From IMG/VR virus record IMGVR_UViG_3300018423_000070, positions 1 to 23,003 of that record: a stretch of DNA of 23,003 nt; one strand, written 5' to 3'. Position 1 is the stretch's first letter; every line of letters begins with the position of its first letter. The position numbers were made by a program, and so were the translations under genes. Positions 2-17,361 of this stretch are shown here, piece after piece. The notes beneath the pieces were generated by a model that had not been told where the DNA came from, ran no database searches, and was given only the letters and a program-made list of their open reading frames with translations. The stretch is from a virus.

Positions 2-3000
2 ATTATTAAAGATCAATATAAGCGTCCTGGTTTAATAAATCATATTCCTGTAGATACTGGTGGAAATTTATTAAGTCCATTAGATAGTGGTTACGCTAAA
101 AACTTTGTTGCAGCACTTTCAAAAGCTACGTTTGTTTTTGGCGACGAAGCACCAGTTGAAACAGCCTGGAGAAAAAGTTCAGAATATCCATTTGCATTAA
201 TGAAATCATGGATACTAAACCAACCAACAAAAATAATTGGTTTAGGTTTTGATAGATTAAGAATAACACGTAATAATGCTAATCAACTAGTATATAGTGA
301 TACACAAAAAAGAATAACCTTAGAAGATTTAAAATTCCCTAATAACTCGACAGTGTCTGATGATACAAATAGAATATATACTTCGGGATTTGTTAATTTT
401 ATTGCAAATTATCTATCGAGTAATGTTTTATCTAATTATGAAGATTATCAAACAAATCTTAAAAGTGTAACTAATCAGATAGCATTTAAGGTTGGCGGTT
501 TTACAGACAAAACTAAATTTAATCTAATACTTGATAGTAGAACTCCTTTAAACCAAGGAAACGTTTTCATACCGCCAGAAAACTATCAAGTAACATTGCA
601 AACAAGTAGTCCTATTGATGTTGTTACATATAGTGGTGTTGTAATTGAAAAAGCAACTAGTGGATATATTATTAGAGGGTATGATATACCTAGTCCGTCT
701 TTTAGATATTATAAACATCAAGAAAATGAAAAAGATCCTCTAGTTAATGTAGGAGGAGTAAGTGCAGGATTCGTAGAATGGGATCAAAATAAACGTTATG
801 TTGTAGATACTATTGTAAAGTTTGAAGTAACTTATTATAGATGTACTACAGCACACACTAGTACCAGCATATTTGACCAAACTAAGTTTTCAAAACTTCC
901 TTCATTGCCAACCGAAGGCGGCAGATCTGCTATATTTAGAACTAAGTTTGATAAAGTATTTCCACAAGAGTTACCATACGGAACATTATTAAGAACTACA
1001 CAGGAAGTTGTTGACTTTATACTAGGATATAGTGAATACTTAATTGATTCAGGATTTGTTTTTAACAATCATAATCCTAATTTAGAAACTATTGAAAACT
1101 GGAAATTAAGTGCAAAAGAATTTATGTTCTGGACAACTCAAGCCTGGGATAGTGGAGCATTAATAACTCTTAGTCCAGGTGCACAGCGAATTGAATTTAA
1201 ATCAGAGTATGCAGTAGTAGACGATATATTTGATACTTTTTATGATTACGGGTTAGTAAAAGCAGACGGCACAAAACTAAGAAAAGAATTTTGTAATATT
1301 TTAAGAACCAATGATAATAGTTTTGTTCTTACTACAAAAAATACAGCAGACGGAATATATGCTGTAAAATTACCATTAGTTCAAAAAGAACATGCTATTG
1401 TACTTGATAATGAAACAGTATTTAAAGATGTTATATATGATTTAGCACCAGGATATAGACAAGAGCGTATTCGTGTACTAGGTTACAGAACTGCTGACTG
1501 GGCAGGCGGATATAACATTCCAGGATTTTTATATGATAATGCTACAGTAACAGAATGGCAATCTTGGAAAGATTATGCAATTGGCGAAACTGTTAAGTAT
1601 AAAGAGTTTTATTATACTGCTACTACTAAAATTACAGGTAGTGAAACATTTGTTAATAGCCAATGGTATAGACTAGACGAAAAACCAGAAAGCAGACTTA
1701 TTTCTAACATTGAATATAAAACTAATCAATTTGCTGATTTTTATGATTTAGATACTGATAACTTTGATATTAACCAACAAGAAATTGCACAACATTTAAT
1801 TGGCTACCAAAAAAGAGATTATCTAGCAAATATTATTAACGACGATGTTAGTCAATACAAGTTCTATCAAGGAATGATTGCTGATAAAGGCACTCGTAAT
1901 GTATTAACTAAATTGTTTGACGCACTTGGCGCAGCCGATAAGGAAAGTTTAGAGTTTTATGAAGAATGGGCTGTTAGAGTAGGCCAATATGGAGCAGCTG
2001 ACGGATTTGATGAAATTGAATTTTTGTTAGACGAAGAAAAGTTTAGATTAAGTCCGCAACCAATTCTACTAACTAATACTATTCCAGAGGATGTTACAGA
2101 TTTAATTTATAGACAAACTCCAAGTGATATTTACGTTTCGCCTGTTAATTATACAAGCAATCCTTTCCCAGTAAGATATACACCGGATACTCCTTTAAAA
2201 ACAGCTGGATTTGTTAGAGAAGATGATGTTCAATATACAGTGAAAACATTTGATGATATATTAACTTTGGATCATACAGTGTTAACTGAAGGTGATTATA
2301 TCTGGGTAACATTTGAAAAAGATTCTTGGAATGTTTATAGATATGTTGACACTCCTTGCAGAGTTACATCTCTTATTAGTACAGAAAGTAGCACATCTGT
2401 AGTTGTTGTTTTAGACAGATTAACTTCTGTTAAAGTTGGAGATATTATAGGTTTATATGAAACTGGAGAAGAAATTAACGGACTGTTTAAAGTAACAGAA
2501 GTTGCACTGAACAGAATAACTATTGAACTACCTGAAGATGTAACACTAAGCAATGAACTAACAGAACTCACAGGAATCCTAACAACGTTTGTTTCTAACA
2601 GAGTAGCAAATCTTGAAGAAGCAAATTCATATGCAGAAAACGACATAGGGTTTAACGAGTTACTATGGGTTGATAGCCAAACAACTGACGGTAATGGAAA
2701 ATGGGCAGTACTTAAAGCAGGTAACTCATTTAACTTTGACGAAGATTTAATAAATCCTACAAATTCAAATTACTCATTTGGTAAAAGTATATTTACTAAT
2801 GATGATAATACTTTAGTTGCAGTAGGTTCTCCTGAAGATGGAGATGGAAAAGTCTTTATATATGAAAGAGTGCAAGACGGCAGCACAGCTCACGGAACAC
2901 TACAATTTAAACAAGTTATAGAACCAACACTAAACTTTTCGTCAGGCGGAAGTAAGTTTGGAGAATCGGTTTCTATAAGTCCTGATGGTAAGTTCTTAGT

Positions 3001-6000
3001 TGTTGGAGCTCCAAATGCAAGCAATGTAAAAACAGCATATAAAGAAGAATTTAACTTTAATACAGATTATAAATTAGGTGCTATTGTACAACATAAAGGT
3101 AATTTGTTTAAATCAAGAAGAACAGTTAGAGGTAGATCCGATAATGTTGTTTTTGGTACATTTGGTAGTGCTAGTAGTTGGAGATCAGAATTACATAAAA
3201 TCTATAACTCCTATGACGATGTACCTTTAATTGCATTAGGAGACTCTCCGCTAAGAGATGTTTCAATCGATCATATATTAGTTAGAGCACCGGCTGCTGC
3301 GTTTGAAGGTAGTAATGTAGGTGATAGCGTATACTTTGATTGGAACGATATTAGTTACAATTACAATCCTATATCGGAAGTTGCTATAACAAATATTAAT
3401 TTGGCAAATCCTGTAGAAATTACAACAGCAACTGATCATGGATTTTCAGATGGTGACGAAGTAATATTTACTGATTTCCCAAATGACGGATTCTTATTTA
3501 GACCATTTACAGGTAATGACCTATTTGACAATAGTGATGTAAACGTTCCTTATGATACTATAAGACAATACGGTGTTAAAGGATTTGAAAACAAACGATA
3601 TTATGTTAAAGTTATAACTAGTCAGTTAGTTGAACTTTATAATAATGAAGAGCTTACTAATAGAGTTAACGGTAATCCAACATCTGGATTATTTACTGGT
3701 TCTTCAGATCCAACTAGATTTAACGGATACATAAGAAAAATTAATAAGATTTTTGATGATCTTTATTCTGATGTAATAAACAAATCTTTCTTAACAACAA
3801 CTGTTCATACAGTTAGAAGAAAAATTACAGATGTATTTTATGTTGTTGATCCTATAAACATTCCTAGTGTATCACAAGGAGATAGAGTTACTACAACAAC
3901 AGGTAATGCTGATGTAGTTTATGTCCGCAACGAATTAGGAAGATTAATTATCTATGCTAACAATAAAAACGGTATTTTCAGTGAAACTGGAGAATTGTTT
4001 ATTAATGACCAATTCCGAATTGGAACCTATACTAGACCATTGCATGATAGTGTAGATAGAAGTTCAGTCTTAGGCGGGTATTGGGAAATAGCGTTACCTA
4101 CACCTATTACACCTAAAGATTATCAAATAGTTGATGCACCACTAATTGAACCTGCTGATGGTCTAGTGTTAGTTGATGTTAAAAATAATAGTGCAACTGA
4201 TTTAGTTAACGGATATACCGAAAGTACAGCTAGATTACCTTATAAGAGCACTATTCAAAATGCCTTAGATGTTCCAGTTACAATTATTGCTGCTACAGGT
4301 CTACCGTTCCAAAAAGAAACAGACTTAATACGTGTACTAAGTCATAAAAGTCAAGGCGTTGGCGGCAGTGTTACAGAAATAGATGTATTAGATCATCGTT
4401 GGGTAGTTAGATTGCCTAAAAATGTTTCTGACAAAGCAACAACTGCGTTTTCTGATGCAACAAAACCAGATCCTTATGTTGGTGTTTGGTTAAACGATAT
4501 ACCCGGTGTTGACGGAACATTGCCAGACTTATCGGATAGAGGTTTTGGGACAGATCCTTACAGTATTATAAACGAAACAAGAGTTCCTTTAGATTTATGG
4601 GATGGATACATTGATTATGATGTATTTGCTGAAATTCCTTTAGTGCCTGGTGATGTTATTAGAGAAGGCATTTCTGGAGCAACAGCAGAAGTTGCATATG
4701 TTCAAAGAGATCTTGACAAGGGAAGAGTGTATGTTAAAAATGTATCAGGTACATTTAGTTTTGGTGATAGATACTTCCCGGGGTTAGCACCGACGTCTAT
4801 GTTCTTGTACAAGCAAGTCGGAGTACAACTTTCTAGATTTGGTACAACTGAATCAAGACAACTTGCCGACGACGATATAGGTAAACTAGCAGTATTTGGT
4901 CAATTTGATGAAAATGGAACTCCTATACCTAGAGAAATTCCACCTACACTGACATATGCTATTACATCTACTTCAGACGAAATTGCAGATTATGAAGTTA
5001 AATTTATTTCTGGAATAGAATATCATACTTGGGTTGAAGAGCGTAAACCAGGACTTCCACGTAATGCTATTGAACCAAGTACAGAAAATAATGACTGGTT
5101 TGAAGTTGATAATATTCCAATTAATGTGCAAAGAAATGCAAGCTCTTTTGTTAATGAAGGTGCATACTTTGTTTACGAATACAATACAGAAACATACAAT
5201 TATGATTTAGTAAATGGTTATATTTTACCTAACAGAGAATCTAACAGATTCCTTGCTAGACATGTTAAAATTATTCAAAACAATAATTTTTATAAAATTA
5301 TTATCAATTCTAATGAAACACATACTAACGATACAAAACAAGAAGTTAGTGCAGATGGTAGAGGTAGATTATATTTTGTTCTTAATGGAACAAGCGACTA
5401 TGGAACATTTAATTGGTCACTAGGAAGAGATCCAAACTTCAAAGGTGTTTATTCTAATACAAGCTCTTATTATCAAGATCAAATTGTTATCTATAATGAA
5501 GTATTTTATAAAGCATTAACAACAATGCAAGCTGAAGAGTTTGATAGTACTAAATGGAGAGTGTTAGGAGATCATATAGACTATGTTGGCTATTTGCCTA
5601 ATACTTCAGGAATTACTATTATTGGTGACGATTCTAGTATTTCAAATTTAGATACAACAGCATTTGGCGATCAATTTGATATAAGTGATAATGGCAGAGT
5701 ACTAGCAACTATTGCAAGATATGAAACTGGCGATAAGTTAATAATTTATAGACTAAAAGATATGCATTTTGAATTTGCAGCGGAGTTTGATGCCCCGGCA
5801 GATTCAAAGAATTTTGGTGATAGTATTGCAGTTTCTGATAATGGTAACTTGATTGTTGTTGGAGCATATAAATCAGATGATAATGAAGCATTCCAAGGAA
5901 AAGTATTTGTTTATAAAAATGTTTCCGGAGTATATCAACTACAGCAAACTTTACACAGTCCTAATGCAGAGCTAGTTGAAGGCTTTGGACTTAATTTAAG

Positions 6001-9000
6001 TTTTGACGGCAACCAATTAATAGTAGCAGGAGAAGCAAGTGATATTATACTCGATACAACATTTGATAGGTATTCAGAAAGAAATACAAATTCTTTAACA
6101 GAGTTTAATAGTAAGTTTGTAAATAATCCTAATAGTAATTTGTCAATTGGAGAAACTACATTTGACAATGGATTTACTACATATGTTAAAAAACTAAACG
6201 ATAGTGGTATAGTTTACTTGTATGAAAATGTAAATGATACTCTAGTATTTGGACAACGTTTAAAATATCCTGACTTCAGAGTTAAAGATTTTGGTAAGAA
6301 TATAGTTGTTAAAAACAATTCAATTTTAGTAGGTTTGCCAGGAAGTTTGGTACAAGATAACCTAGTTGGAAAAGTAGCAGTTTACAATAAGTTTAATGAA
6401 AGTAAAATTTGGGAAGTATTTAGAGAGCCAGTTGATCCAGCTGATATTTCAAAATTTAGAGGAAGTTTCTTATATGACACTAGTGAAAACAAAATGCTCA
6501 CTAGGCTTGACATATTAGATCCAATACAAGGAAAAATTCCCGGATTAGCAGAACAAGAACTATCTTATAAAACTTACTATGACCCAGCATCTTATAATAT
6601 AGGATATGCACATGATAAAGAACAATATGTTTCTTGGGGCAGTGAACATGTTGGTAAACTATGGTGGGATTTAAGTACAGTTAAGTATGTTGATTATCAT
6701 CAAGGTAGTATAACTTATGCACAAAATCATTGGAATACATTTGCTGAAGGTTCGTCAGTAGATATTTACGAATGGGTTGAATCAAATATTCTTCCTTCGG
6801 CTTGGGATAACTTAGCCGGTACAAATAGAGGTATTGCTTTAGGAATAAGTGGTGTTTCTAAATACGGAGATACTAGATATGTTGTAAAAGACATATACGA
6901 TTCTATCTCGCAATCATTTGTAGTAAAATATTATTTTTGGGCAAAAGGAACCACAATACTACCACAAGTAGAAGGAAGATCAAAAACTGGATTTGATGTA
7001 CAGAATATTATATTAGATCCTCAAGGACAGCAATTAAAATTTGTTACTATTTTAGGCGATAATAAATTTGTTCTTTATAATTCTAACGGTTATTTAAAAG
7101 ACAAAGACGTTGCAATAAATTTCCGTTATTGGACTATAGATAATCAAGATAATAACATCCATACAGAATATCAAATTATTACAGACGGATTTGAAACAAG
7201 CCGTCCTAAGAAAGTAATAGAAGATAAATGGTTTGATAGTTTAATAGGATCAGATAAATTCCATAGACCTGTTCCAGATCCTGCATTAAGTGTAAAGCAA
7301 AAATATGGAAATATGAATAGACCAAGACAAAGTTGGTTTGTTGATAGACAGGAAGCACTAAAGCAGTTTATTGAAAGAGTTAATAGAGTATTAGCAAAAG
7401 AGTTAGCTACAGATAATTTAAATCTTGCAAAGCTATTTGATGCAGAAAAAGCACCATCAACATTAACAGGATTATATGACACTGCTGTTGACACTGATGA
7501 AGAATTAAGATTTATTGGTACAGTACGTGCAGAACAAGCACAAATACAAGCAACTGTTGTTGACGGAGTTGTGACTAAGATAGATGTTATTAATAGAGGT
7601 AGAGGATACAAATATCCACCTAAGATTGAAATAACTGGAACTGGAGAAGGTTTAGAGCTAGTACCAGTATTAAACAATTTAGGCATGATTACAAGCGTTA
7701 CTATTGTAAATGGCGGGTCAAACTACACTAATGATATAACGCTTACTATAAGACCTCTTACTGCGCTTGTAAGAGCGGATAGTACTATAGGCGGTGCCTG
7801 GTCATTGTATGCTTGGAATAGCACTACAAGAACTTGGAATATAGTTCGTCAGCAATATTATAATGTTTCGCAATATTGGCAGTATAAAGATTGGTACGAA
7901 GATGGCTATTCTGAACTTACATCTGTTGATTTCTTAATAGATGACTATTACCAGTTAAACATTATTAATGATAGTATTGGTGATATTGTTAAAATATCAA
8001 ATGTTGGCGAAGGTGGATGGATTTTACTTGAAAAAATTGTTAACGTTGATACTCCTGATTACACTTCGGGATATAGAACTGTTGGTAGACAAAGAGGCAC
8101 AATAGAGTTTTTACCTACACTGTATACTCAAGAAGGCGGCGATACAGAACTTAGAAAGATACTTGAAACTATAAGAGATGACTTGTTTGTTGACGAACTA
8201 GCTTCTGAATATAATCAGTTATTCTTTGCAAGTTTACGCTATGTACATACTGAACAAAACTATGTAGATTGGGCATTTAAAACCAGTTTTATTAAAGCAA
8301 AACACAACGTTGGAGAGCTTATTGAGAAAACAACATTTAACAATGATAGTTTACCTAGCTTTGAAGCATATATTGAAGAAGTTAAACCTTACAAGACTAA
8401 AATTAGAGAATATTTGTCAGCATACGACAAAACTGACAACACTCAAAGTGTAATAACAGATTTTGAACTATCTCCGTTCTATGATCCAGAAATTGGAGAA
8501 ATTGTTTCTCCACAAGTACAAATTAATAACGGTGTGTTATCAGGAATAAACTTTGATGTTACTGTTTATCCACAAAAACACTGGATTGATAACTTTACAT
8601 ATTCGGTGCAAGAAATTATAATTGAAGACGGCGGATCAGGTTATGTTGAAGCACCTCAAATAGTAATTAGTGGAGGTGGCGGATCAGGAGCCAAAGCAAC
8701 AGCGTATATTGGTAGTGGTAGTATTCAGTCTATTGTAGTAACAAGTCCTGGCACAGGATACACTAGTGTTCCAAATATAACTGTAATTGGTACTGTAGCC
8801 GACGGCGGCTCACTTCCTAAAGTTTCGGTAGTACTTGGTAATAAAAAAGTAAGAAGTTTAACTTTACAACAAAAGTTTGATAGGGTTTCTCCTAATTATG
8901 AAATTTTTGTGTTAGAAGAAACTGAATCATTTGTAAGCAGTGGTACTGAGCTTGTGTTAAGACTAAAATACCCTATGGATCTTACTAGAGCAAATGTTAA

Positions 9001-12000
9001 AGTATTCTTTAATGGTACTGAAGCATTAAGTAGCGAATATACTTACAAAAATATAAACGTTTTCTCAAACGATAAAACACACATACATGCAAAAGGTACT
9101 ATTATACTAGAACAAGCAGCTCTTAACGGTGTTACTATAACTGTACAATATAATAAAGACATTAGTATGCTTACTGCTGCTGACAGAATTAGATTATTTT
9201 ATAATCCAGCAGAAGGACAACAAGGAAATGATCTTGGACAGCTAATGGACGGTGTTGACTATGGTGGTGTAGAAGTTAGATCATTTGAGTTTGGACAAGA
9301 TTTAGGTTGGGATACTAAAGAATGGTATACAACTTCTTGGGATTCATACGATACAAACTTTGATGACGAAACATTCTATTCAGATGGCAGCACAACTAAG
9401 TTTTCGTTAAGTAAACCTCTTGAAGATGGTGTTGAATACAATGTGTACATTAACGGTATACGCATTGATGATCCTAATTGGGATGGAAGTTCTAAAACTT
9501 ATCTTGCCGATGATGGAGTTACAGTACTTGCACTAGGAAATCCTAACGCAATAATGAGAACTATTACAACAGAAAGTTCAAATTATGAAGTTGTTAATGG
9601 CGAGTATATTGTAAGTATAGAAAACATAGAAGAATTTGAAGAATACTACACTACAAGTATTAATAATCCTCCTAAAGACCAAGTTATTGTTATTAGAAAA
9701 TCTACATCAGATGGAAGTTTCTTACCCGAAGGTGTTGGATTTGACTCAATAATACAAGGTGGTAATTTAGCATATGGAACTGCTACAGGTTTAGCAGCAG
9801 GTGATATTACACTTGACGGTGACGGATTTGTTACACCTACTACAAGCAAAGGTCCTGAAGAACTTATTCCAGGACAGTTACACGATACACTTGATTTAAA
9901 AGTTTATGATCGTGCAGCAGATGGCGGCAGTTTAATAAGCACTAGAAATTATACTGCTACTAGCGGACAAACTACTTTTGATTTAAGTATTTTACCACAT
10001 AATATAGATTCGTTATTTGTTAAAGTTAATGGTGTGCTAATGAGCTCCGAAGAGTATGAAATAAATTATTCTGACAAGGTTGTTACTTTAACAACGGCTC
10101 TATCACAAGGAGATAAAGTAAACATTTCTTCAATGGCAGGTAATGGTGAAAGAATTATTGATATAGACTCATTTACTGGGGACGGAACAACACAAATTTT
10201 TGTTTCTAGCGCACTTTATAATCCAAATCAGCAATATTATATTACTGTAGATGGTAAAAAAGCACAAGTTACTCTGTTTGAAGCCGACGAAACATACGGA
10301 GATTTACAAGGCTATACCGCAATGCAGTTTGTAGTTGCTCCTGAAGAAAATGCATTTATATATTACTCGTTATTTGACACTAACGAAGATGCTACAATAC
10401 AAAGATATAGCGAAGTCCTTGTAGATAGATTTATAGGCGACGGTAGTACAGTTGAATTTGAATTAACTCCAGAGCCGTCAACTAGACTTCCTTTAAGTCA
10501 TAACATTATTGTTAAGGTTGATAATAAAATTCTTTATCCAGGATATACACAACATTGGTATATTAGTACTTCTAGAGAATATGTGTTAGATAGATCACAA
10601 TATGCAACAGGTAGTTTAAGTCCTGATTCAGTTATAGTCTATCTAAACGGTGAAAAATTAGCATTATTACAAGACTATCGTTGGAACTATAGTGACTCTT
10701 CAGTAACATTGTTTGATAACGTTGGAGAAGTTGGCGATGATTTAGAAATTGTTATTCCAGAATCTGGCGAATATGACTTTAATAGAAATACTTTAATAAC
10801 TGTTCCAAATGCAATTGGTACATTTGAACCTGGGGAAACTGTTGAAATTGGAACAGGAGATAGTACTGTTTATACAGCAACAGTTAAATCTTATTCTACA
10901 GGATCAGGAAATCTTGTGTTAGTTGGCACAGTATCAGGACTTGTACAAGCAATTGATCTTGATGATACTATTCCTGTAAAAGGACTAACTAGCCAAGCAT
11001 CGGCTGATAATATTTCTGCAATAGAATTTATCGAAGCAGGAGATAGTTTAATTCTAAAAGATACTCCGGCTGAAAATGCTACTATAGATGTTTATAAATT
11101 TAACAAACACGATATACAAGATATACAAATGGAAACTAAAGTTAATGTAACTAGATCTACATTAACTGTTGGAACAGATGATTACTATGAATTTAATAGA
11201 TTAACTAGAGGTTTAGTACAACTAAGAGTTCCAGCTTTAGATATAGCATATGTGTGGGTATTGCTAAACGGAGAAATGTTAACATCAAGCGTAGATTATA
11301 GATTAGTTAAAATGGATAATTACGTACAAATAGATAGACCCGTTAAAGAAAATGATGTAATACAAGTTATTCATTTTGCAGCTGATAAAGCAACTGAAAA
11401 ATTTGGGTTTAGGATGTTTAAGGATATGTTAAACAGAACTCATTATAAGAGATTAAACAAAAATAATGTTTATATTCTTAGAGAGCCGTTACACATTACA
11501 GACGAAAAGATAACTTTGACAGATGCAACCGGAATAACACAGCCGAGTACGGAACTTAATATTCCTGGTGTGTTATTTGTTGAAGGTGAAAGAATTGAAT
11601 ACTTCAAAGTAGAAGATAATGTTCTATCACAGTTAAGGAGAGGAACACTAGGAACAGGTCCTAAAGATGTATACGAAGTTGGTACAGAATTAATGGATCA
11701 AAGTACTTCAGAGACTATTCCTTATAGAGATGAAATGGTGAGCTTAATTGCACTTGATGATGAATCAACGCAACTTACACTTGATTGGATACCTACAAAA
11801 GGTGTTGACGAATTTGAAATTTTTGTTGCAGGTAGAAGATTACGCAAAAATTCAATATCAGCTTACCAGTTCCAAGAAATAGATAGCGAAGGTAACTTAA
11901 TAACAAACATTATTGATGCTGATAGTCCAGAAGGTGATATTACATTAGAGCCAGAATTTACACTATCAATTGAAAATAATACTGCTATAGTTACTCTTGC

Positions 12001-12142
12001 AGAGAAACCAATAGAAGCAACTAGGGTTTTAGTTGTTAGAAAACTAGGAAAAACATGGCAATTACCTGGAGAACAATTGAGATATGCAGATAATGCTATT
12101 GCAGATTTCATACGTGGAGCAACAACTGACTTACCTAAATAA
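2..12142 (+). CDS. Giant multi-domain virion structural protein (5' end outside window)
   Basis: The frame is open from base 2 with no stop before 12142, giving 4046 visible residues; the ATG at 200 is internal, since the 66 codons before it read as good protein and no ribosome site precedes it. Recognisable parts, by base: aromatic-rich segments resembling chitin-binding-type (CBM5/12) modules at 779-898, 1557-1678, 3044-3190 and 5435-5570; six FG-GAP-like propeller repeats (FG..., hydrophobic-VGAP, GKVxxY) in two blocks at 2777-3025 and 5663-6391; an HGFxxGDxV module at about 3380-3720; two similar GD...G.FS modules at 3878-4010 and 4652-4780; glycine-rich GxGY modules at 7541-7760 and 8611-8830; and a C-terminal series of GDG(S/T)T/VxVNG beta modules from about 9360 to 11400. 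Such very large proteins occur in marine T4-like phages and are called virion structural proteins. A baseplate or tail-fibre-attached adhesion role is inferred from the carbohydrate-binding and propeller-like modules and the adjacent fibre genes. No catalytic motif was recognised. Confidence 0.9.
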   Translation: MIKDQYKRPGLINHIPVDTGGNLLSPLDSGYAKNFVAALSKATFVFGDEAPVETAWRKSSEYPFALMKSWILNQPTKIIGLGFDRLRITRNNANQLVYSDTQKRITLEDLKFPNNSTVSDDTNRIYTSGFVNFIANYLSSNVLSNYEDYQTNLKSVTNQIAFKVGGFTDKTKFNLILDSRTPLNQGNVFIPPENYQVTLQTSSPIDVVTYSGVVIEKATSGYIIRGYDIPSPSFRYYKHQENEKDPLVNVGGVSAGFVEWDQNKRYVVDTIVKFEVTYYRCTTAHTSTSIFDQTKFSKLPSLPTEGGRSAIFRTKFDKVFPQELPYGTLLRTTQEVVDFILGYSEYLIDSGFVFNNHNPNLETIENWKLSAKEFMFWTTQAWDSGALITLSPGAQRIEFKSEYAVVDDIFDTFYDYGLVKADGTKLRKEFCNILRTNDNSFVLTTKNTADGIYAVKLPLVQKEHAIVLDNETVFKDVIYDLAPGYRQERIRVLGYRTADWAGGYNIPGFLYDNATVTEWQSWKDYAIGETVKYKEFYYTATTKITGSETFVNSQWYRLDEKPESRLISNIEYKTNQFADFYDLDTDNFDINQQEIAQHLIGYQKRDYLANIINDDVSQYKFYQGMIADKGTRNVLTKLFDALGAADKESLEFYEEWAVRVGQYGAADGFDEIEFLLDEEKFRLSPQPILLTNTIPEDVTDLIYRQTPSDIYVSPVNYTSNPFPVRYTPDTPLKTAGFVREDDVQYTVKTFDDILTLDHTVLTEGDYIWVTFEKDSWNVYRYVDTPCRVTSLISTESSTSVVVVLDRLTSVKVGDIIGLYETGEEINGLFKVTEVALNRITIELPEDVTLSNELTELTGILTTFVSNRVANLEEANSYAENDIGFNELLWVDSQTTDGNGKWAVLKAGNSFNFDEDLINPTNSNYSFGKSIFTNDDNTLVAVGSPEDGDGKVFIYERVQDGSTAHGTLQFKQVIEPTLNFSSGGSKFGESVSISPDGKFLVVGAPNASNVKTAYKEEFNFNTDYKLGAIVQHKGNLFKSRRTVRGRSDNVVFGTFGSASSWRSELHKIYNSYDDVPLIALGDSPLRDVSIDHILVRAPAAAFEGSNVGDSVYFDWNDISYNYNPISEVAITNINLANPVEITTATDHGFSDGDEVIFTDFPNDGFLFRPFTGNDLFDNSDVNVPYDTIRQYGVKGFENKRYYVKVITSQLVELYNNEELTNRVNGNPTSGLFTGSSDPTRFNGYIRKINKIFDDLYSDVINKSFLTTTVHTVRRKITDVFYVVDPINIPSVSQGDRVTTTTGNADVVYVRNELGRLIIYANNKNGIFSETGELFINDQFRIGTYTRPLHDSVDRSSVLGGYWEIALPTPITPKDYQIVDAPLIEPADGLVLVDVKNNSATDLVNGYTESTARLPYKSTIQNALDVPVTIIAATGLPFQKETDLIRVLSHKSQGVGGSVTEIDVLDHRWVVRLPKNVSDKATTAFSDATKPDPYVGVWLNDIPGVDGTLPDLSDRGFGTDPYSIINETRVPLDLWDGYIDYDVFAEIPLVPGDVIREGISGATAEVAYVQRDLDKGRVYVKNVSGTFSFGDRYFPGLAPTSMFLYKQVGVQLSRFGTTESRQLADDDIGKLAVFGQFDENGTPIPREIPPTLTYAITSTSDEIADYEVKFISGIEYHTWVEERKPGLPRNAIEPSTENNDWFEVDNIPINVQRNASSFVNEGAYFVYEYNTETYNYDLVNGYILPNRESNRFLARHVKIIQNNNFYKIIINSNETHTNDTKQEVSADGRGRLYFVLNGTSDYGTFNWSLGRDPNFKGVYSNTSSYYQDQIVIYNEVFYKALTTMQAEEFDSTKWRVLGDHIDYVGYLPNTSGITIIGDDSSISNLDTTAFGDQFDISDNGRVLATIARYETGDKLIIYRLKDMHFEFAAEFDAPADSKNFGDSIAVSDNGNLIVVGAYKSDDNEAFQGKVFVYKNVSGVYQLQQTLHSPNAELVEGFGLNLSFDGNQLIVAGEASDIILDTTFDRYSERNTNSLTEFNSKFVNNPNSNLSIGETTFDNGFTTYVKKLNDSGIVYLYENVNDTLVFGQRLKYPDFRVKDFGKNIVVKNNSILVGLPGSLVQDNLVGKVAVYNKFNESKIWEVFREPVDPADISKFRGSFLYDTSENKMLTRLDILDPIQGKIPGLAEQELSYKTYYDPASYNIGYAHDKEQYVSWGSEHVGKLWWDLSTVKYVDYHQGSITYAQNHWNTFAEGSSVDIYEWVESNILPSAWDNLAGTNRGIALGISGVSKYGDTRYVVKDIYDSISQSFVVKYYFWAKGTTILPQVEGRSKTGFDVQNIILDPQGQQLKFVTILGDNKFVLYNSNGYLKDKDVAINFRYWTIDNQDNNIHTEYQIITDGFETSRPKKVIEDKWFDSLIGSDKFHRPVPDPALSVKQKYGNMNRPRQSWFVDRQEALKQFIERVNRVLAKELATDNLNLAKLFDAEKAPSTLTGLYDTAVDTDEELRFIGTVRAEQAQIQATVVDGVVTKIDVINRGRGYKYPPKIEITGTGEGLELVPVLNNLGMITSVTIVNGGSNYTNDITLTIRPLTALVRADSTIGGAWSLYAWNSTTRTWNIVRQQYYNVSQYWQYKDWYEDGYSELTSVDFLIDDYYQLNIINDSIGDIVKISNVGEGGWILLEKIVNVDTPDYTSGYRTVGRQRGTIEFLPTLYTQEGGDTELRKILETIRDDLFVDELASEYNQLFFASLRYVHTEQNYVDWAFKTSFIKAKHNVGELIEKTTFNNDSLPSFEAYIEEVKPYKTKIREYLSAYDKTDNTQSVITDFELSPFYDPEIGEIVSPQVQINNGVLSGINFDVTVYPQKHWIDNFTYSVQEIIIEDGGSGYVEAPQIVISGGGGSGAKATAYIGSGSIQSIVVTSPGTGYTSVPNITVIGTVADGGSLPKVSVVLGNKKVRSLTLQQKFDRVSPNYEIFVLEETESFVSSGTELVLRLKYPMDLTRANVKVFFNGTEALSSEYTYKNINVFSNDKTHIHAKGTIILEQAALNGVTITVQYNKDISMLTAADRIRLFYNPAEGQQGNDLGQLMDGVDYGGVEVRSFEFGQDLGWDTKEWYTTSWDSYDTNFDDETFYSDGSTTKFSLSKPLEDGVEYNVYINGIRIDDPNWDGSSKTYLADDGVTVLALGNPNAIMRTITTESSNYEVVNGEYIVSIENIEEFEEYYTTSINNPPKDQVIVIRKSTSDGSFLPEGVGFDSIIQGGNLAYGTATGLAAGDITLDGDGFVTPTTSKGPEELIPGQLHDTLDLKVYDRAADGGSLISTRNYTATSGQTTFDLSILPHNIDSLFVKVNGVLMSSEEYEINYSDKVVTLTTALSQGDKVNISSMAGNGERIIDIDSFTGDGTTQIFVSSALYNPNQQYYITVDGKKAQVTLFEADETYGDLQGYTAMQFVVAPEENAFIYYSLFDTNEDATIQRYSEVLVDRFIGDGSTVEFELTPEPSTRLPLSHNIIVKVDNKILYPGYTQHWYISTSREYVLDRSQYATGSLSPDSVIVYLNGEKLALLQDYRWNYSDSSVTLFDNVGEVGDDLEIVIPESGEYDFNRNTLITVPNAIGTFEPGETVEIGTGDSTVYTATVKSYSTGSGNLVLVGTVSGLVQAIDLDDTIPVKGLTSQASADNISAIEFIEAGDSLILKDTPAENATIDVYKFNKHDIQDIQMETKVNVTRSTLTVGTDDYYEFNRLTRGLVQLRVPALDIAYVWVLLNGEMLTSSVDYRLVKMDNYVQIDRPVKENDVIQVIHFAADKATEKFGFRMFKDMLNRTHYKRLNKNNVYILREPLHITDEKITLTDATGITQPSTELNIPGVLFVEGERIEYFKVEDNVLSQLRRGTLGTGPKDVYEVGTELMDQSTSETIPYRDEMVSLIALDDESTQLTLDWIPTKGVDEFEIFVAGRRLRKNSISAYQFQEIDSEGNLITNIIDADSPEGDITLEPEFTLSIENNTAIVTLAEKPIEATRVLVVRKLGKTWQLPGEQLRYADNAIADFIRGATTDLPK

Positions 12143-12784: not shown

Positions 12785-14998
12785 ATGGCATACGAAATTA
12801 GATATTCAGACTTTGTTAATAAAGGCAGTATTGTCATTGAAGATAATACTATTAACCAAGAAACTTCTTTAAAGTTGCCAGGACGTAATACTACTGCTTA
12901 TGGTTCTAGTATTGCAGAAAACTTTTTACATCTATTAGAAAATTTTGCAAATGCAACACAGCCATCAAGTCCAGTAGAAGGGCAGTTATGGTATGACAAT
13001 AGTCCGGGTGTTGACCAATTAAAACTATGGGATGGTAGTACATGGGTAGCAGCTGGCGGACTCAAAAAAGCAAATATTGCTCCAGATGCAGAAAATTCAG
13101 TTATTGGTGATCTTTGGGTTGATACAGATAACCAACAATTATACTTATTTGCTGGTTCTGGATGGTTGCTTGTAGGTCCACAATTTGCAGAAGGACTTGC
13201 TACTGGTTCTAGACCAGATAAAATTGTTGCTATTGATAACAACGAATATGATGTTGTATTCATTGAAGCAAAAGGAAAACCTGTTGCTATTATTTCAAGT
13301 GAAGCATTTAGTCCAAAAGCAACAATTGAAGGATTTGAAGGCGGAATACGTCCAGGAATTAATCTATCAGCAGCAAATATAGCAGGCGATGGCGTATCAC
13401 AATTTAATGGTATTTCAGAAAAAGCATTAGGGTTAGTTATACCAGGAGTAACAACAGCTCAAGATATATTAATTACTGCTGCTAATGTTATGCGTAAAGA
13501 CGCAATTAACCTTATAAACTATCCTATAGCAATTAAAAATCCAGAAGGATTGTCAATAGGTGAAACTTCAGAATTAAAACTAACAATAGATGGTTTTGGC
13601 GGCGTCATATCTCATGCTATACCAGGTTCTAATTTACAAATTAGAATGAACCCAGGCACACAATTAGTTGATGAAAATCCTATACTAGAAGCTGTATTAA
13701 CAGTAGACAGTTCTAGAAAAGTTGGTATTAACAAGTCAGGACCAGAACAAGAATTAGATGTATCGGGTATTATTCAATCAGACGAACAAATTAAAGTAAC
13801 AAGTTTATTAGACAGCGGAACTGTTAATAGTGGTAGTATTATAACTACTGGTGGTGCAGGCATTGCTAAGAACTTATCTGTTGGTGGACAAGCTAAAATC
13901 CAAGGTCCGTTAACAGTAGGTAGAGCACCTGATTCAATACCTTTAACAAGTATAGACTTGTCGGAGTTTGGTGTTGATGCTTTAAGAAATACATATAATG
14001 CTGCTATTGTTCCAGATGAAAATAACTTAAGAACTATTGGTACTCCAACTAGAGTTTTCTCAGCAATGTATGCTACAGAATTTATTGGAAGTCTACGAGG
14101 CGAAGTACAAGGTTCAGTTTCAGGAAGATCTGGACAAGCAGATAGATTATCGTCTCCTACAGTTTTCCAAGTAACAGGCGATGTTACTGCTAACAATGTC
14201 AGTTTTGACGGACAACAAGGAACAGTAACATTTACTACGGCGGTTAGTAACAACTTTATTGCTAACAGACCAGATGTTATTGGTGCTGGCGTAAATGCTA
14301 AACCTGTTCCTTCGGAAGACAATGACGAATTTTTAGTTAACAAACCTGAAGGCGTGTTTAAAATGCCAAGGTCTAGAATACTTGCAGGAGTTAAGGCGAT
14401 TGTGCCAGTAGGTACAGTTATACCATATGCAGGTATTATTAATGATATTGAAATTCCAATACCCGACGGTTGGTTAGTTTGTGATGGCGGCATATACTTA
14501 ATTGCAGAATATGCAGATTTACACAGTCTTATACAGTGGTCATTTTTATCAAAGAGTTTAGTACAACAAGCAGGATTTGATCCAGAAAAATATTTTGCTG
14601 TACCAGATATGCGCGGCAGATTCCCATTAGGTGCAGATATTATGGGAGAAGCTGGAAACGCACAACGAATTATTAACGACTCTGCAGATGCTATTGGCGG
14701 CAACGGCGGCGTAGAACAAGTATCACTTGAATTAACTAATCTTCCAGAACACGAACACGATATGATAAATGATATGGACGGCGGCGACGGATCGCAATTC
14801 TATGCATTTAGTGATACATCAACAGTTGCTAACTTAGGTCAAGGTGGCACAGTTGAGAAACAAGATTTAGTAGGTACTGGTACTGGTGCATTGTATGCAG
14901 GTACTGGTGGTGTATCGTCACAAGAAACTATAGGGCAAGCATTTGATACACTAAGCCCATTTTTAACACTTAACTATCTAATTTATGCAGGGGAATAA
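12785..14998 (+). CDS. Tail fibre protein with C-terminal tail-collar domain (short-tail-fibre-like)
   Basis: A fibre-type protein of 737 residues. Residues 1-135 carry the module shared with the next two genes: L.L.GRN, ENFLHLLENFA, P..GQLWYD at about 60-69, and a second GDLWVD near 108. Residues ~250-330 hold the GLSIG shaft module and the VGIN...LDVSG motif seen in fibre shafts. A segment near 410-430 (NNLRTIGTPTRVFSAMY) matches the IG...RW..VY motif of the other fibres. Residues ~539-615 form a phage tail-collar domain (VPVGTVIPYAG, IPDGWLVCDGG, VPDMRGRFPLG), followed by LPEHEHD near 653-659. The HEH recalls the HxH sequences that bind metal on the axis of T4 gp12 and gp37 tips; metal binding here is inference. 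The product probably forms a trimeric fibre that contacts the host surface. The start follows GAGGTG, and the previous stop is 3 bases upstream. It resembles T4 gp12 at the collar only, so I give no symbol. Confidence 0.88.
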   Translation: MAYEIRYSDFVNKGSIVIEDNTINQETSLKLPGRNTTAYGSSIAENFLHLLENFANATQPSSPVEGQLWYDNSPGVDQLKLWDGSTWVAAGGLKKANIAPDAENSVIGDLWVDTDNQQLYLFAGSGWLLVGPQFAEGLATGSRPDKIVAIDNNEYDVVFIEAKGKPVAIISSEAFSPKATIEGFEGGIRPGINLSAANIAGDGVSQFNGISEKALGLVIPGVTTAQDILITAANVMRKDAINLINYPIAIKNPEGLSIGETSELKLTIDGFGGVISHAIPGSNLQIRMNPGTQLVDENPILEAVLTVDSSRKVGINKSGPEQELDVSGIIQSDEQIKVTSLLDSGTVNSGSIITTGGAGIAKNLSVGGQAKIQGPLTVGRAPDSIPLTSIDLSEFGVDALRNTYNAAIVPDENNLRTIGTPTRVFSAMYATEFIGSLRGEVQGSVSGRSGQADRLSSPTVFQVTGDVTANNVSFDGQQGTVTFTTAVSNNFIANRPDVIGAGVNAKPVPSEDNDEFLVNKPEGVFKMPRSRILAGVKAIVPVGTVIPYAGIINDIEIPIPDGWLVCDGGIYLIAEYADLHSLIQWSFLSKSLVQQAGFDPEKYFAVPDMRGRFPLGADIMGEAGNAQRIINDSADAIGGNGGVEQVSLELTNLPEHEHDMINDMDGGDGSQFYAFSDTSTVANLGQGGTVEKQDLVGTGTGALYAGTGGVSSQETIGQAFDTLSPFLTLNYLIYAGE

Positions 14999-15003
14999 AA
15001 TAA

Positions 15004-17307
15004 ATGGCTTACAAACTTAACAAAACCGACGGAACACTACTAACAGAATTAGTAGACGGTCAAATAGATACTACTTCCTGCGATTTAACTCTTATAGGTA
15101 GAAACTACGTTGGATTTGGAGAAGCATTCAACGAGAATCTTATTAAGTTATTAGAAAACTTTGCAAGCACTTCGCCTCCAGCAACGCCAATTGTTGGACA
15201 AGTATGGTATGATAGATCTGAAGCAAGACTTAAAGTTTATGACGGAAGTGGTTTTAAAGCAAGTGGTCCTATTATAAGTAATACTCAACCAGATATGGTT
15301 GCAGGTGATATTTGGATCAATAACTCTACAAACCAGTTACACTTTTATGATGGCACAGGTGATCCTATACTAGTAGGTCCTGCATATACAGATGCCCAAG
15401 GAACTAGTGGTTATGTAGTAGATACAGTTAGAGGTAAAGATGGTCAAGACAGAACAGTAGTAAAACTTTTAATTGCAAATACTCCTGTTGCACTATTAAG
15501 TAATATAAACTTTGAACCATCATTATCAGAACAATCAAGATTACGTATTACTGGAAGAATTTTAAAAGGCTATAACATTATTGATTCTGATAACTTTGTA
15601 TTTTACGGAGTTTCAAATGCAGCAGAATCACTTATTACAAATGACCTTGACAGTAACGGAAACAGAATTAGAAAATCTGCATCGCAATTTTTGTTCTCAG
15701 ATGCAAATAGTACTACAACAGGTACAATTTTTATTCAAAACTCAAATGGTTTAACTATAGGTAGAACAGGAGAAGCAAGATTTCAAGCAACTGACGAAGT
15801 AACTTCTATAATACTTACAGGTAAAGATGATAAGTTTAGAGTTAATATGTTAGGCGATTCAGAATATGATGCTTTTGTATTAACTTCAAATAATAGACGT
15901 GCTGGTATTAATATGGATTTAGGCTCTGTTCCTAGAGCAACACTAGATGTAAACGGCGATACTATTATTCGAGGAAACTTAACAGTTGAAGGTAACCAAA
16001 CAGTACTTGAAACTTCAACACTAACTGTTGATGATTATAATCTTGAATTAGGACATGCTGATACTGTAATTACCTTAAACAGTCCAATGAATGCTACTAT
16101 TGCAGCATTGTTAACAGAGAATGAATTAATTACAGAATCAAATACTAATGCACAAGGTAGATTTAAATCTATATCAGATGATTTACTAACACTATATTTA
16201 GAACCAGTTAGTGGATCCTTTAGTGAAGGTTTATCAAATAGATTAACAGCAGCATCAGCAGGAATTTTGTTAAGAGAAGAACCTATTGGTACAGAAGCAT
16301 ATGTAGCTTCAGCTGTACAAAGATCTGATGTTACTGCTAACGGCGCCGGTGTTATTATTAAAGGTACTCCTGCTGTATCTAATGAATATGACAAGTATTT
16401 AAAATGGATCAATAACGCTTACGATGATCAATGGGAATCAAGTGAAAACTTTGCACTTGCTGAAGATAAAGCATTTAAGATTATAGATAGAGTTTCTAAT
16501 AATCCAAGAGTGATGATAGAACAAACATCTGCACCTGATACATATTTTGAATTAGGTGTAAACATTGAAGTAGCATCAGGATTAAGAGACGTTGGTATTT
16601 TAGATAGAGTAAGAGTTGGTGAGCCAGGTACTACTAGAATTTTAATTGACGAAGTTACAGCATACGGAGCAACATTACCTACGATACAAGCACCGATAGA
16701 TGGATTGCGTATAGATAGTGCAGACACTATAACTGTTACTAATGCTGGTAATGATGTTAAAATTACTGGTGTTGCAACAACAAACTACACTACAGGTGCA
16801 TTAAGTGATGCTGCTAACAAAGATTACGTTGATACACAAATGGAAAGTAATACTGTTGCACTTGCACTTGATGTAACAGACATGCCACAAACTGGATTTA
16901 ACAGTTTAAATGAACAAATTATAGATATTTTAGATTTCTTGCACCCAGCAGCAGAAAAAAGACTTAATACATTTGCTAGAGTACATACTACTTCTTTTAG
17001 AGGTCAAGTTTCTAATATTGATATATCAAATACAATTAGTACAACAAAGATTGGTGCAGATTTTAGTGACATTAATACTATTGAACCATATGGTACACCA
17101 CCAACAAATGGTGGTTCGGCAAACCAACAATTAGTTCAAGATATTGGATTTACTGGCACTACTTCAGGTGATGTTACCCTTAAAGCAGATGATGGCGGCT
17201 CACCGGCACAAACAACTCGCGTAAAACGCTTTTACAAAGTTATCGATAACGGCGGGACGTATGAATGGCAAGCATCTGCTACAGGACCAAACGGTGAAAC
17301 ACCGTAA
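15004..17307 (+). CDS. Fibre-like structural protein, second paralogue, 767 residues
   Basis: The N-terminal ~135 residues are homologous to the flanking fibre genes: LTLIGRNYVGFGE, NENLIKLLENFA, PIVGQVWYD, then GDIWIN...QLHFYDG and LVGPAY. A GLTIG module starts near residue 249, followed by RAGIN...LDVNGDTIIRG and then GNLTVEGNQTVLETSTL at about 325-345. That last motif is typical of marine phage fibre shafts. Unlike its neighbours it has no collar domain and no DLAEMY-type terminal domain; it ends in a short beta-rich stretch (RVKRFYKVIDNGG). It may be a proximal shaft, a heteromeric partner or a fibre carrying another tip. The start lies 5 bases after the preceding stop, with AGGGGAA overlapping that stop, so translation is probably coupled. 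Confidence 0.87.
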   Translation: MAYKLNKTDGTLLTELVDGQIDTTSCDLTLIGRNYVGFGEAFNENLIKLLENFASTSPPATPIVGQVWYDRSEARLKVYDGSGFKASGPIISNTQPDMVAGDIWINNSTNQLHFYDGTGDPILVGPAYTDAQGTSGYVVDTVRGKDGQDRTVVKLLIANTPVALLSNINFEPSLSEQSRLRITGRILKGYNIIDSDNFVFYGVSNAAESLITNDLDSNGNRIRKSASQFLFSDANSTTTGTIFIQNSNGLTIGRTGEARFQATDEVTSIILTGKDDKFRVNMLGDSEYDAFVLTSNNRRAGINMDLGSVPRATLDVNGDTIIRGNLTVEGNQTVLETSTLTVDDYNLELGHADTVITLNSPMNATIAALLTENELITESNTNAQGRFKSISDDLLTLYLEPVSGSFSEGLSNRLTAASAGILLREEPIGTEAYVASAVQRSDVTANGAGVIIKGTPAVSNEYDKYLKWINNAYDDQWESSENFALAEDKAFKIIDRVSNNPRVMIEQTSAPDTYFELGVNIEVASGLRDVGILDRVRVGEPGTTRILIDEVTAYGATLPTIQAPIDGLRIDSADTITVTNAGNDVKITGVATTNYTTGALSDAANKDYVDTQMESNTVALALDVTDMPQTGFNSLNEQIIDILDFLHPAAEKRLNTFARVHTTSFRGQVSNIDISNTISTTKIGADFSDINTIEPYGTPPTNGGSANQQLVQDIGFTGTTSGDVTLKADDGGSPAQTTRVKRFYKVIDNGGTYEWQASATGPNGETP

Positions 17308-17324
17308 CGAAATTAAAAGGGAAA

Positions 17325-17345
17325 TACGATAAATACTATATCGTA
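17325..17345 (+). promoter_or_regulatory. T4-type late promoter motif inside a 7-bp perfect hairpin
   Basis: GATAAATACTA at 17328-17338 matches the extended T4 late promoter (TATAAATACTAT) except for its first base, and recurs identically before the minus-strand fibre gene. The motif lies in an inverted repeat: TACGATA at 17325-17331 and TATCGTA at 17339-17345, separated by seven bases. A transcript starting near 17341-17343 would include the ribosome site AGGGGA (17348-17353) and the ATG at 17362. The gap to the previous gene (54 bases) is the largest among the plus-strand genes, which fits a separate promoter. Confidence 0.6.
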
Positions 17346-17361
17346 ATAGGGGAAGTAACGA

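Follow-up and report, generated by a model that had tools for sequence, protein, structure and literature searches.

A predicted integrin-like propeller with a nested arm in a giant baseplate-region protein of a probably jumbo-type phage

Can a single propeller close around a very large insertion, and of what use would such an arrangement be to a phage? This question is raised by a giant protein encoded in the virus record IMGVR_UViG_3300018423_000070, whose 23,003 bases constitute the window analysed here. An initial annotation of this window had noticed six FG-GAP-like repeats, interrupted after the second one by about 879 residues, and had proposed that they may form one propeller that closes around an inserted arm displaying adhesion domains. 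We consider it quite probable that the best explanation as a whole is an integrin-like ring with a nested arm in a protein of the baseplate wedge region; the ring, its seven blades, the place of the insertion and the nesting are strongly predicted.

The six segments were confirmed as FG-GAP-like repeats. They all translate in a single frame (2-12142, + strand), which is open at its 5' end, and read FGKS..GKVFIYE (2777-2867), FGES..LVVGAPNASN (2957-3025), FGDQ..LIIYR (5663-5752), FGDS..GKVFVYK (5813-5917), FGLN..GIVYLYE (5984-6226) and FGKN..GKVAVYNK (6290-6391). The match to the Pfam family FG-GAP_2 (PF14312) scores 38.2 bits, above the cut-off of 23. The frame is 5,229 codons long in the identical contig L003, and the window contains the C-terminal 4,046 of them. 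The core of the protein matches PHROG 10938, a virion structural protein, and so does the N-terminal portion encoded in L003 (E 4e-206). The stretch is unlikely to be an assembly artefact, because it recurs entirely and at 100% identity in contigs L002 and L003, with its first 510 residues in L014, and at 57-64% identity in 14 further loci, three of which carry it partially; the initial search had returned 17 loci of 57-100% identity, four of them with partial cover of the stretch, and eight rows were aligned. Literature searches covered FG-GAP in connection with phages, the wedge proteins of jumbo phages and insertions into propellers; the titles and abstract openings of the matches listed do not describe the protein.

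The predicted ring and its seven blades

An AlphaFold2 model of positions 2771-6370 (1,200 residues), based on a 75-row alignment, has a predicted local distance difference test score (pLDDT) of 83.0 and a predicted template modelling score (pTM) of 0.74. Its best match by VIA-align is 7usl_A (integrin alphaM; Z 32.4), with 330 residues aligned at 3.0 Å over model residues 1 to 1192 and chain residues 16 to 592, and 50 out of 50 entries among the matches listed are integrins by title. An integrin without an inserted domain, alphaV (8xfg_A), aligns over 333 residues at 2.8 Å. By hand count, about 278 propeller residues lie behind the insert, after subtraction of the second CBM5/12-like module and the blade-6 arm (see below); therefore, about 50 or more of the 330 aligned residues should derive from blades 1 and 2 in front of it, assuming that the insert, this module and the blade-6 arm stay unaligned. 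The alignment to integrins from the first to nearly the last model residue thus supports the earlier proposal that one propeller closes round a large insert, and the structure prediction that the initial annotation had suggested as a check gave an integrin-propeller match across the insert and not two separate domains.

To cover both propeller ends, we also folded a relative, L055, whose insert is shorter than that of the window (pLDDT 84.1, pTM 0.70). Its best match is 7usm_A (Z 29.7, 353 residues, 3.1 Å, model residues 53 to 1093), and G-beta propellers rank after the integrins with a Z of about 28. Strands are present at residues 47-62 of this model, ahead of blade 1, and the alignment to alphaM begins at model residue 53 and chain residue 1. 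The last blade is probably closed by a strand from this pair before blade 1, which had been overlooked.

The initial count of six blades has to be raised to seven, as blade 3, which lacks the FG motif, had been missed. By prediction, seven four-stranded blades of the integrin type are found in one ring. In profile-profile comparisons of blades 1-7, 15 of the 21 pairs beat 140 column-shuffled decoys (maximum 14.7), the best pair scoring 78.0. The second repeat had been described as lacking its final strand and stopping at 3025; the strand is indeed absent up to that point, but strands C and D of this blade are located after the insert. Joined from its two halves, blade 2 matches blade 1 with 97.1% (44 columns, score 49.9) and blade 5 with 98.5% (52 columns, score 69.4), the 140 decoys reaching at most 14.7. 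Its C-D half matches the corresponding half of blade 5 (score 26.0; 60 decoys at most 15.1), and it beats the decoys against four of the six other C-D halves. A single profile of the C-D halves, applied per sequence, recovers blade 2 C-D in most rows of the class of relatives with a short insert, and also selects the CBM5/12-like modules. Blade 3 is the weakest: its match to blade 5 has 71.6% (score 24.5) and that to blade 1 has 20%, the rest being at decoy level. FG is present in six of the seven window blades, blade 3 having FL, and G-x-P in three of the seven. A DxDxDG-like calcium motif was not found in the window residues examined, and D.[DN].DG occurs anywhere in the region in 4 of 69 rows.

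Several observations weigh against this reading. Six of the 21 blade pairs stay within the decoy range, four of which involve blade 3 and two blade 7, and in the window the single profile of C-D halves misses blade 2 C-D and selects CBM5/12-like module 2 in its place. Both structures are predictions, and closure of the ring was judged from alignment ranges and the residue count; the window model covers neither the strands that precede blade 1 nor the final part of blade 7, and the folded sequences are the window segment and L055, neither of them from the short class. Beyond blade 7 the L055 model has low confidence, with block means of 32-66 from residue 1101 onwards. Finally, a raw Foldseek search against the PDB places integrins first (probability 1.00) but with template modelling (TM) scores of 0.12-0.18 by query length and root-mean-square deviations of 7-13 Å, poor global scores that we attribute to the long insert. 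Such high deviations in the raw alignments would also fit two separate domains, with blades 1 and 2 belonging to one fold, blades 3-7 making up a five-bladed propeller and a linker joining the two, and five-bladed propellers do exist. We nevertheless regard two domains as very unlikely, since the 330 residues aligned at 3.0 Å from model residue 1 exceed the count of the C-terminal block, blade 2 is completed only beyond the insert, and the short-class relatives show, by eye, the same seven blades consecutively.

Other ring sizes were considered besides the seven-bladed one. A six-bladed ring was rejected once blade 3 and the missing part of blade 2 had been found. For an eight-bladed ring, in which positions 6431-6529 would combine with the strands before blade 1, three of the seven comparisons beat the decoy maximum of 14.7, barely (scores 5-18), and this option is also disfavoured by the poor L055 model at the stretch after blade 7.

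The inserted arm and its relatives

The interval 3026-5662 comprises exactly 879 codons, in agreement with the initial annotation. However, the insert proper accounts for only about 650 of these residues (3137-5077), and the interval does not consist only of unrelated domains, as blade 3, a second CBM5/12-like module and the C and D strands that blade 2 lacks ahead of the insert also lie within it. Simple boundaries of the insert are therefore not supported: after strand B of blade 2 the chain runs through about 700 residues before strand C, and it then completes this blade and passes on to blade 3 and the second module. The expansion of the fifth repeat, given earlier as about 50 residues, was found as a 59-residue loop ahead of GIVYLYE.

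The insert is itself enclosed in a CBM5/12-like module. According to the alignment (A3), the window chain enters module 1 in the B-C loop of blade 2, departs for about 650 residues, returns for the second half of the module and then continues with strands C and D. The first half of module 1 aligns to columns 1-32 of the 57-column module of the short-class relatives (probability 98.3), and the second half to columns 40-57 (probability 94.7, score 29.9; 40 decoys at most 11.0); against module 2 the second half reaches merely 14.8%. Neither module 1 (13.5 bits) nor module 2 reaches the Pfam cut-off of 26.2 for CBM5/12 (PF02839). The nesting that is strongly predicted is thus that of an arm in a CBM5/12-like module, of this module in a propeller, and of the propeller in a wedge protein. 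A third CBM5/12 module, in the N-terminal core of the protein (window 776-862, residues 259-287), scores above the Pfam cut-off with 35.3 bits, and the profile of this core finds chitinase A1 (1ed7_A, E 0.003), plausibly via that module.

Relatives without the insert exist, as a comparison proposed in the initial annotation required. From 183 proteins 173 were kept (L096 was skipped, and L014, L016, L019-L024 and L054 have no first-blade or post-propeller match), and at 95% identity they gave 75 non-redundant sequences, including that of the window. The stretch W1046-1712, numbered by codon of the frame starting at base 2, has 479-782 residues in 56 of these 75 sequences (667 in the window) and 26-28 in the other 19, without intermediates; since the relatives are the best 80 of 173 and the best 80 of 290, the ratio of 56 to 19 is not a natural frequency. 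In the short class, which includes L097, L131 and L138, blade 2 is uninterrupted but for the short module in its B-C loop. By eye, the short-class relatives (L097, L138 and others) have the same propeller blade for blade, with both CBM5/12-like modules; the 667 residues of the window correspond in them to 26-28, which make up the second half of the module. The part of the core that precedes the propeller gave a tree of 71 rows (48 long, 17 short and 6 outgroup), in which the short class forms one clade with a support of 100 in the Shimodaira-Hasegawa-like approximate likelihood ratio test (SH-aLRT), and one change separates the two classes. The branch that nests this clade among the long rows has a support of only 89, and the outgroup branches are long and were flagged by the tree tool. 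A long-class relative was also observed on two contigs, L185 and L186 (153 kb and 335 kb), of one metagenome-assembled genome (MAG) of Neomarinimicrobiota, with 9 differences over the fetched 21,281 bases; perhaps this reflects a misbinned jumbo phage, or it is a hint of the host.

The arm itself resembles no recognised domain in the searches that we made. Thirty-two of the 56 arms were aligned (A5); the 31 others are 25-65% identical to the arm of the window, and none is unrelated. With these 32 arms, a sequence search of the PDB gave a single match (E 1.2) and identified no known fold, no vWA domain matched in Pfam at E up to 1, and a Gp7_5th match, below the cut-off, was found in four members (E 0.008).

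Both the tree and the selection test are restricted to rows with enough sequence before the propeller (48 long and 17 short in the tree, 48 long in the selection test). Averaged over the 1,128 pairs among the 48 long-class rows, pairwise identity is 0.576 for the core, 0.415 for the blades, 0.388 for the insert and 0.528 for the post-propeller part. For 31 pairs that are more than 80% identical, the pooled ratio of non-synonymous to synonymous differences (pN/pS) is 0.191 in the core, 0.202 in the blades, 0.186 in the insert, 0.225 in CBM5/12-like module 2, 0.172 in the blade-6 arm and 0.162 in the post-propeller part; it should be noted that pairs share rows, that pS is high in many of them, and that the core values of pairs involving L086 are unusual (pN 0.22) and may inflate the core ratio. 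Judged from these sequences, the insert is under purifying selection equal to that on the core, and in the 31 close pairs it displays no sign of the rapid change expected for a host-range domain.

These data also bear on the view that the arm plays no role in the protein and is a selfish element, for example an intein or another removable sequence. The arm is missing from one clade and located at a single point, as would be expected of such an element. Nonetheless, no intein or endonuclease family was found in the 32 arms (Pfam at E up to 1, PHROG at E up to 0.1), the tree has a single change between the classes, and purifying selection is equal to that of the core, so that we consider this the least probable of the readings discussed, with next to no weight.

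The best structural matches of the phage propeller are integrins of the alphaM, alphaX and alphaL type, which likewise combine a seven-bladed FG-GAP-type propeller with a large domain that interrupts it at blade 2. The alpha-I domain of integrins, which is inserted between blades 2 and 3, is of the vWA type and about 200 residues long (PMC12422189, PMC3192720), and integrin-type propellers have an FG-GAP/Cage motif in each blade (PMC3192720). In contrast, the insert of the phage protein has about 650 residues, is not recognised as vWA, and is placed in the B-C loop of blade 2, inside the CBM5/12-like module of that loop, and the stretch in the window is without the DxDxDG calcium motif. The phage ring seems to close round its insert much as some animal integrins do round theirs, and the two blade-2 insertions are likely to be parallel and not due to shared descent. 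Other viral FG-GAP proteins present in the BFVD (from giant viruses, cyanophage S-TIM5 and uncultured Caudovirales) are also FG-GAP propellers, with low global TM-scores.

Probable position in the baseplate and possible role of the arm

In L003, the gene preceding that of the giant protein encodes a baseplate wedge subunit (PHROG 10646, E 8.8e-299; PHROG 219, E 8.4e-18). Homologues of the giant protein directly follow genes annotated as baseplate wedge in the phages Phosso, RaK2 and PA5oct, and in Atu_ph07 the homologue follows a gene that matches PHROG 10646. As the T4 gene order is 6-7-8-9-10, the giant protein is at the position of gene 7, directly behind a gp6-like gene; we infer that the upstream gene would be gp6 itself and that the giant protein sits in the wedge. 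On the other side of the balance, hhalign with single T4 sequences found no homology to gp6-gp10 (at most 1.3% probability for gp7, a homology that was tried and dropped), so that it is gene order that carries the gp7 role. Residues 191-275 of the giant protein (L003:3728-8500) were observed to match PHROG 677, named baseplate wedge tail fiber protein connector (E 8e-08), which is the name of T4 gp9.

Six named jumbo phages share with the window protein a homologous core on either side of the propeller site: RaK2 (ORF070w), PA5oct (gp355), Atu_ph07 (AUZ94962.1), Phosso (294), Salicola phage SCTP-2 (gp140) and Vibrio phage 2.275.O (NVP2275O_424); Atu_ph07 is the one of the six whose protein was tested against PHROG 10938. 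The distance between the landmarks KG and DPxxG is 302 residues in RaK2, 362 in Vibrio 2.275.O, 415 in PA5oct, 603 in SCTP-2, 1621 in Phosso and 1628 in Atu_ph07, compared with about 1,542, by hand, in L003 and the window. A propeller is not recognisable in these six homologues: no blade match below E 0.01 was found in them, the best one (E 0.015, SCTP-2) lying outside the site; the content of the site therefore differs among phages. The site of Atu_ph07 (L019) holds about 1,600 residues of other content, in which a pattern like G.GY...P.V recurs in the parts viewed, and propeller-like proteins are present elsewhere in Atu_ph07 and possibly in Phosso.

The geometry of the loops may indicate how the ring is placed. 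Loop boundaries were taken from the L055 model and MAFFT, in an alignment (A4) of 69 of the 75 rows (L008, L030, L043, L102, L122 and L157 were left out). None of the 15 A-B and C-D loops exceeds 12 residues, whereas 7 of the 14 B-C and D-A loops exceed 25 residues in at least one row; the one-sided chance of this asymmetry, calculated by hand as C(14,7)/C(29,7) and treating the loops as independent, is about 0.002. The B-C and D-A loops lie together on one face of a propeller, the face that bears the ligands in integrins. All expansions of more than 12 residues, i.e. the arm, the CBM5/12-like modules and the blade-6 arm, leave this face, and the other face has tight turns.

Taken together, a T4-like and probably jumbo-type phage would have built a seven-bladed, integrin-alpha-like FG-GAP propeller into the giant protein at the gp7 position of its baseplate wedge, at a site that is left short or otherwise filled in other jumbo phages. 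The B-C loop of blade 2 would bear the CBM5/12-like module with the arm of about 650 residues inside it, after which the chain would complete blade 2. The face with the tight turns would most likely pack on the wedge, and the arm would be held outward by the expanded face, extending the baseplate as a conserved and fixed structure. Tentatively, and with slightly less than even confidence, we propose that the role of the arm is not host binding but the docking or spacing of adjacent components, for example the fibres whose genes lie downstream.

We rate this spacing or docking role above host adhesion, in which the arm would be an adhesin and the propeller would present it, together with the CBM5/12-like modules, to a surface glycan or protein in the manner of integrin alpha-I. 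CBM5/12-like modules flank and enclose the arm, the one in the N-terminal core passing the Pfam cut-off, and every large expansion is on the face that bears ligands in integrins, all of which speaks for an adhesin. Yet no binding domain was recognised in the arm, which leaves the surrounding modules below the Pfam cut-off as the sole hint of the adhesion domains supposed by the initial annotation. The arm is scarcely more variable than the blades, the aligned arms are all related to that of the window, and the insert evolves like the structural core; a pN/pS as in the core speaks against a hypervariable adhesin. Host adhesion is therefore possible but rather doubtful. We attach a small probability to a third role, by analogy with the relay of alpha-I integrins, in which the arm would change its state on host contact and the rigid ring would pass this change on to the wedge, helping to trigger the baseplate. 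If this were true, the grafting of a large domain onto blade 2 of such a ring would have evolved on two occasions: in animals, where it serves adhesion, and in phages, where it would serve to trigger the tail.

The analysis points to an integrin-like propeller as one of the modules from which a protein of the phage baseplate region is built. Because the triply nested insertion is absent from natural relatives, the effect of an insertion in blade 2 can be read from paired relatives, and the differing content of the site across jumbo phages can serve to study the growth of baseplates. As the blades, the arm and the strand that closes the ring are spread over 3.7 kb, annotation that counts repeats would overlook the ring.

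Features of the window and downstream genes

The predicted features of the giant protein are collected in Table 1.

Table 1. Positions in the window of the predicted parts of the giant protein.
Feature	Positions	Strand	Support or remark
Giant baseplate-region virion structural protein, open reading frame	2..12142	+	PHROG 10938, E 1e-188
Strand pair before blade 1 (GKWAVLKAG..FNFDEDLINP)	2690..2761	+	Strands 47-62 of the L055 model; outside the window model
Blade 1	2765..2950	+	Profile comparison, window model (starts 2771)
Blade 2, strands A and B	2951..3037	+	Alignment, profile comparison, window model
CBM5/12-like module 1, first half, in blade-2 B-C loop	3038..3136	+	Aligned to short-class module
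Inserted arm, about 647 residues	3137..5077	+	No counterpart in the 19 short-class relatives
CBM5/12-like module 1, second half (..ENNDWFEV..)	5078..5131	+	Aligned to short-class module
Blade 2, strands C and D	5147..5236	+	hhalign to blade 5 C-D, probability 93.3; window-model strands 797-805 and 810-818
Blade 3, no FG motif	5237..5425	+	Alignment, window model; weak profile support
CBM5/12-like module 2, in blade 3-to-4 loop	5432..5587	+	16.1 bits, below Pfam cut-off
Blade 4	5651..5803	+	Profile comparison, window model
Blade 5	5804..5977	+	Profile comparison, window model
Blade 6, with 59-residue arm in B-C loop	5978..6277	+	Profile comparison, window model
Blade 7	6278..6430	+	Profile comparison, models; last strand beyond the window model end (6370)
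Start of conserved core after the propeller (..LDILDPIQ, then GKIPG)	6431..6529	+	Common to RaK2, PA5oct and Atu_ph07

Downstream of the giant protein, at 12785-19998 on the + strand, three proteins of 737, 767 and 878 residues have common N-terminal matches to PHROG 15511 and PHROG 14394. Further along they match differing families, and the first has a Phage Tail Collar domain; this is as expected for fibres that share one attachment domain. On the opposite strand, positions 20117-21811 encode a protein of 564 residues whose Major tropism determinant N-terminal domain (PF18454) scores 38.6 bits, the cut-off being 26.3. In a phage that carries a diversity-generating retroelement, Mtd serves as the receptor-binding protein; the 564-residue protein has a repetitive stretch near 20700-21280.

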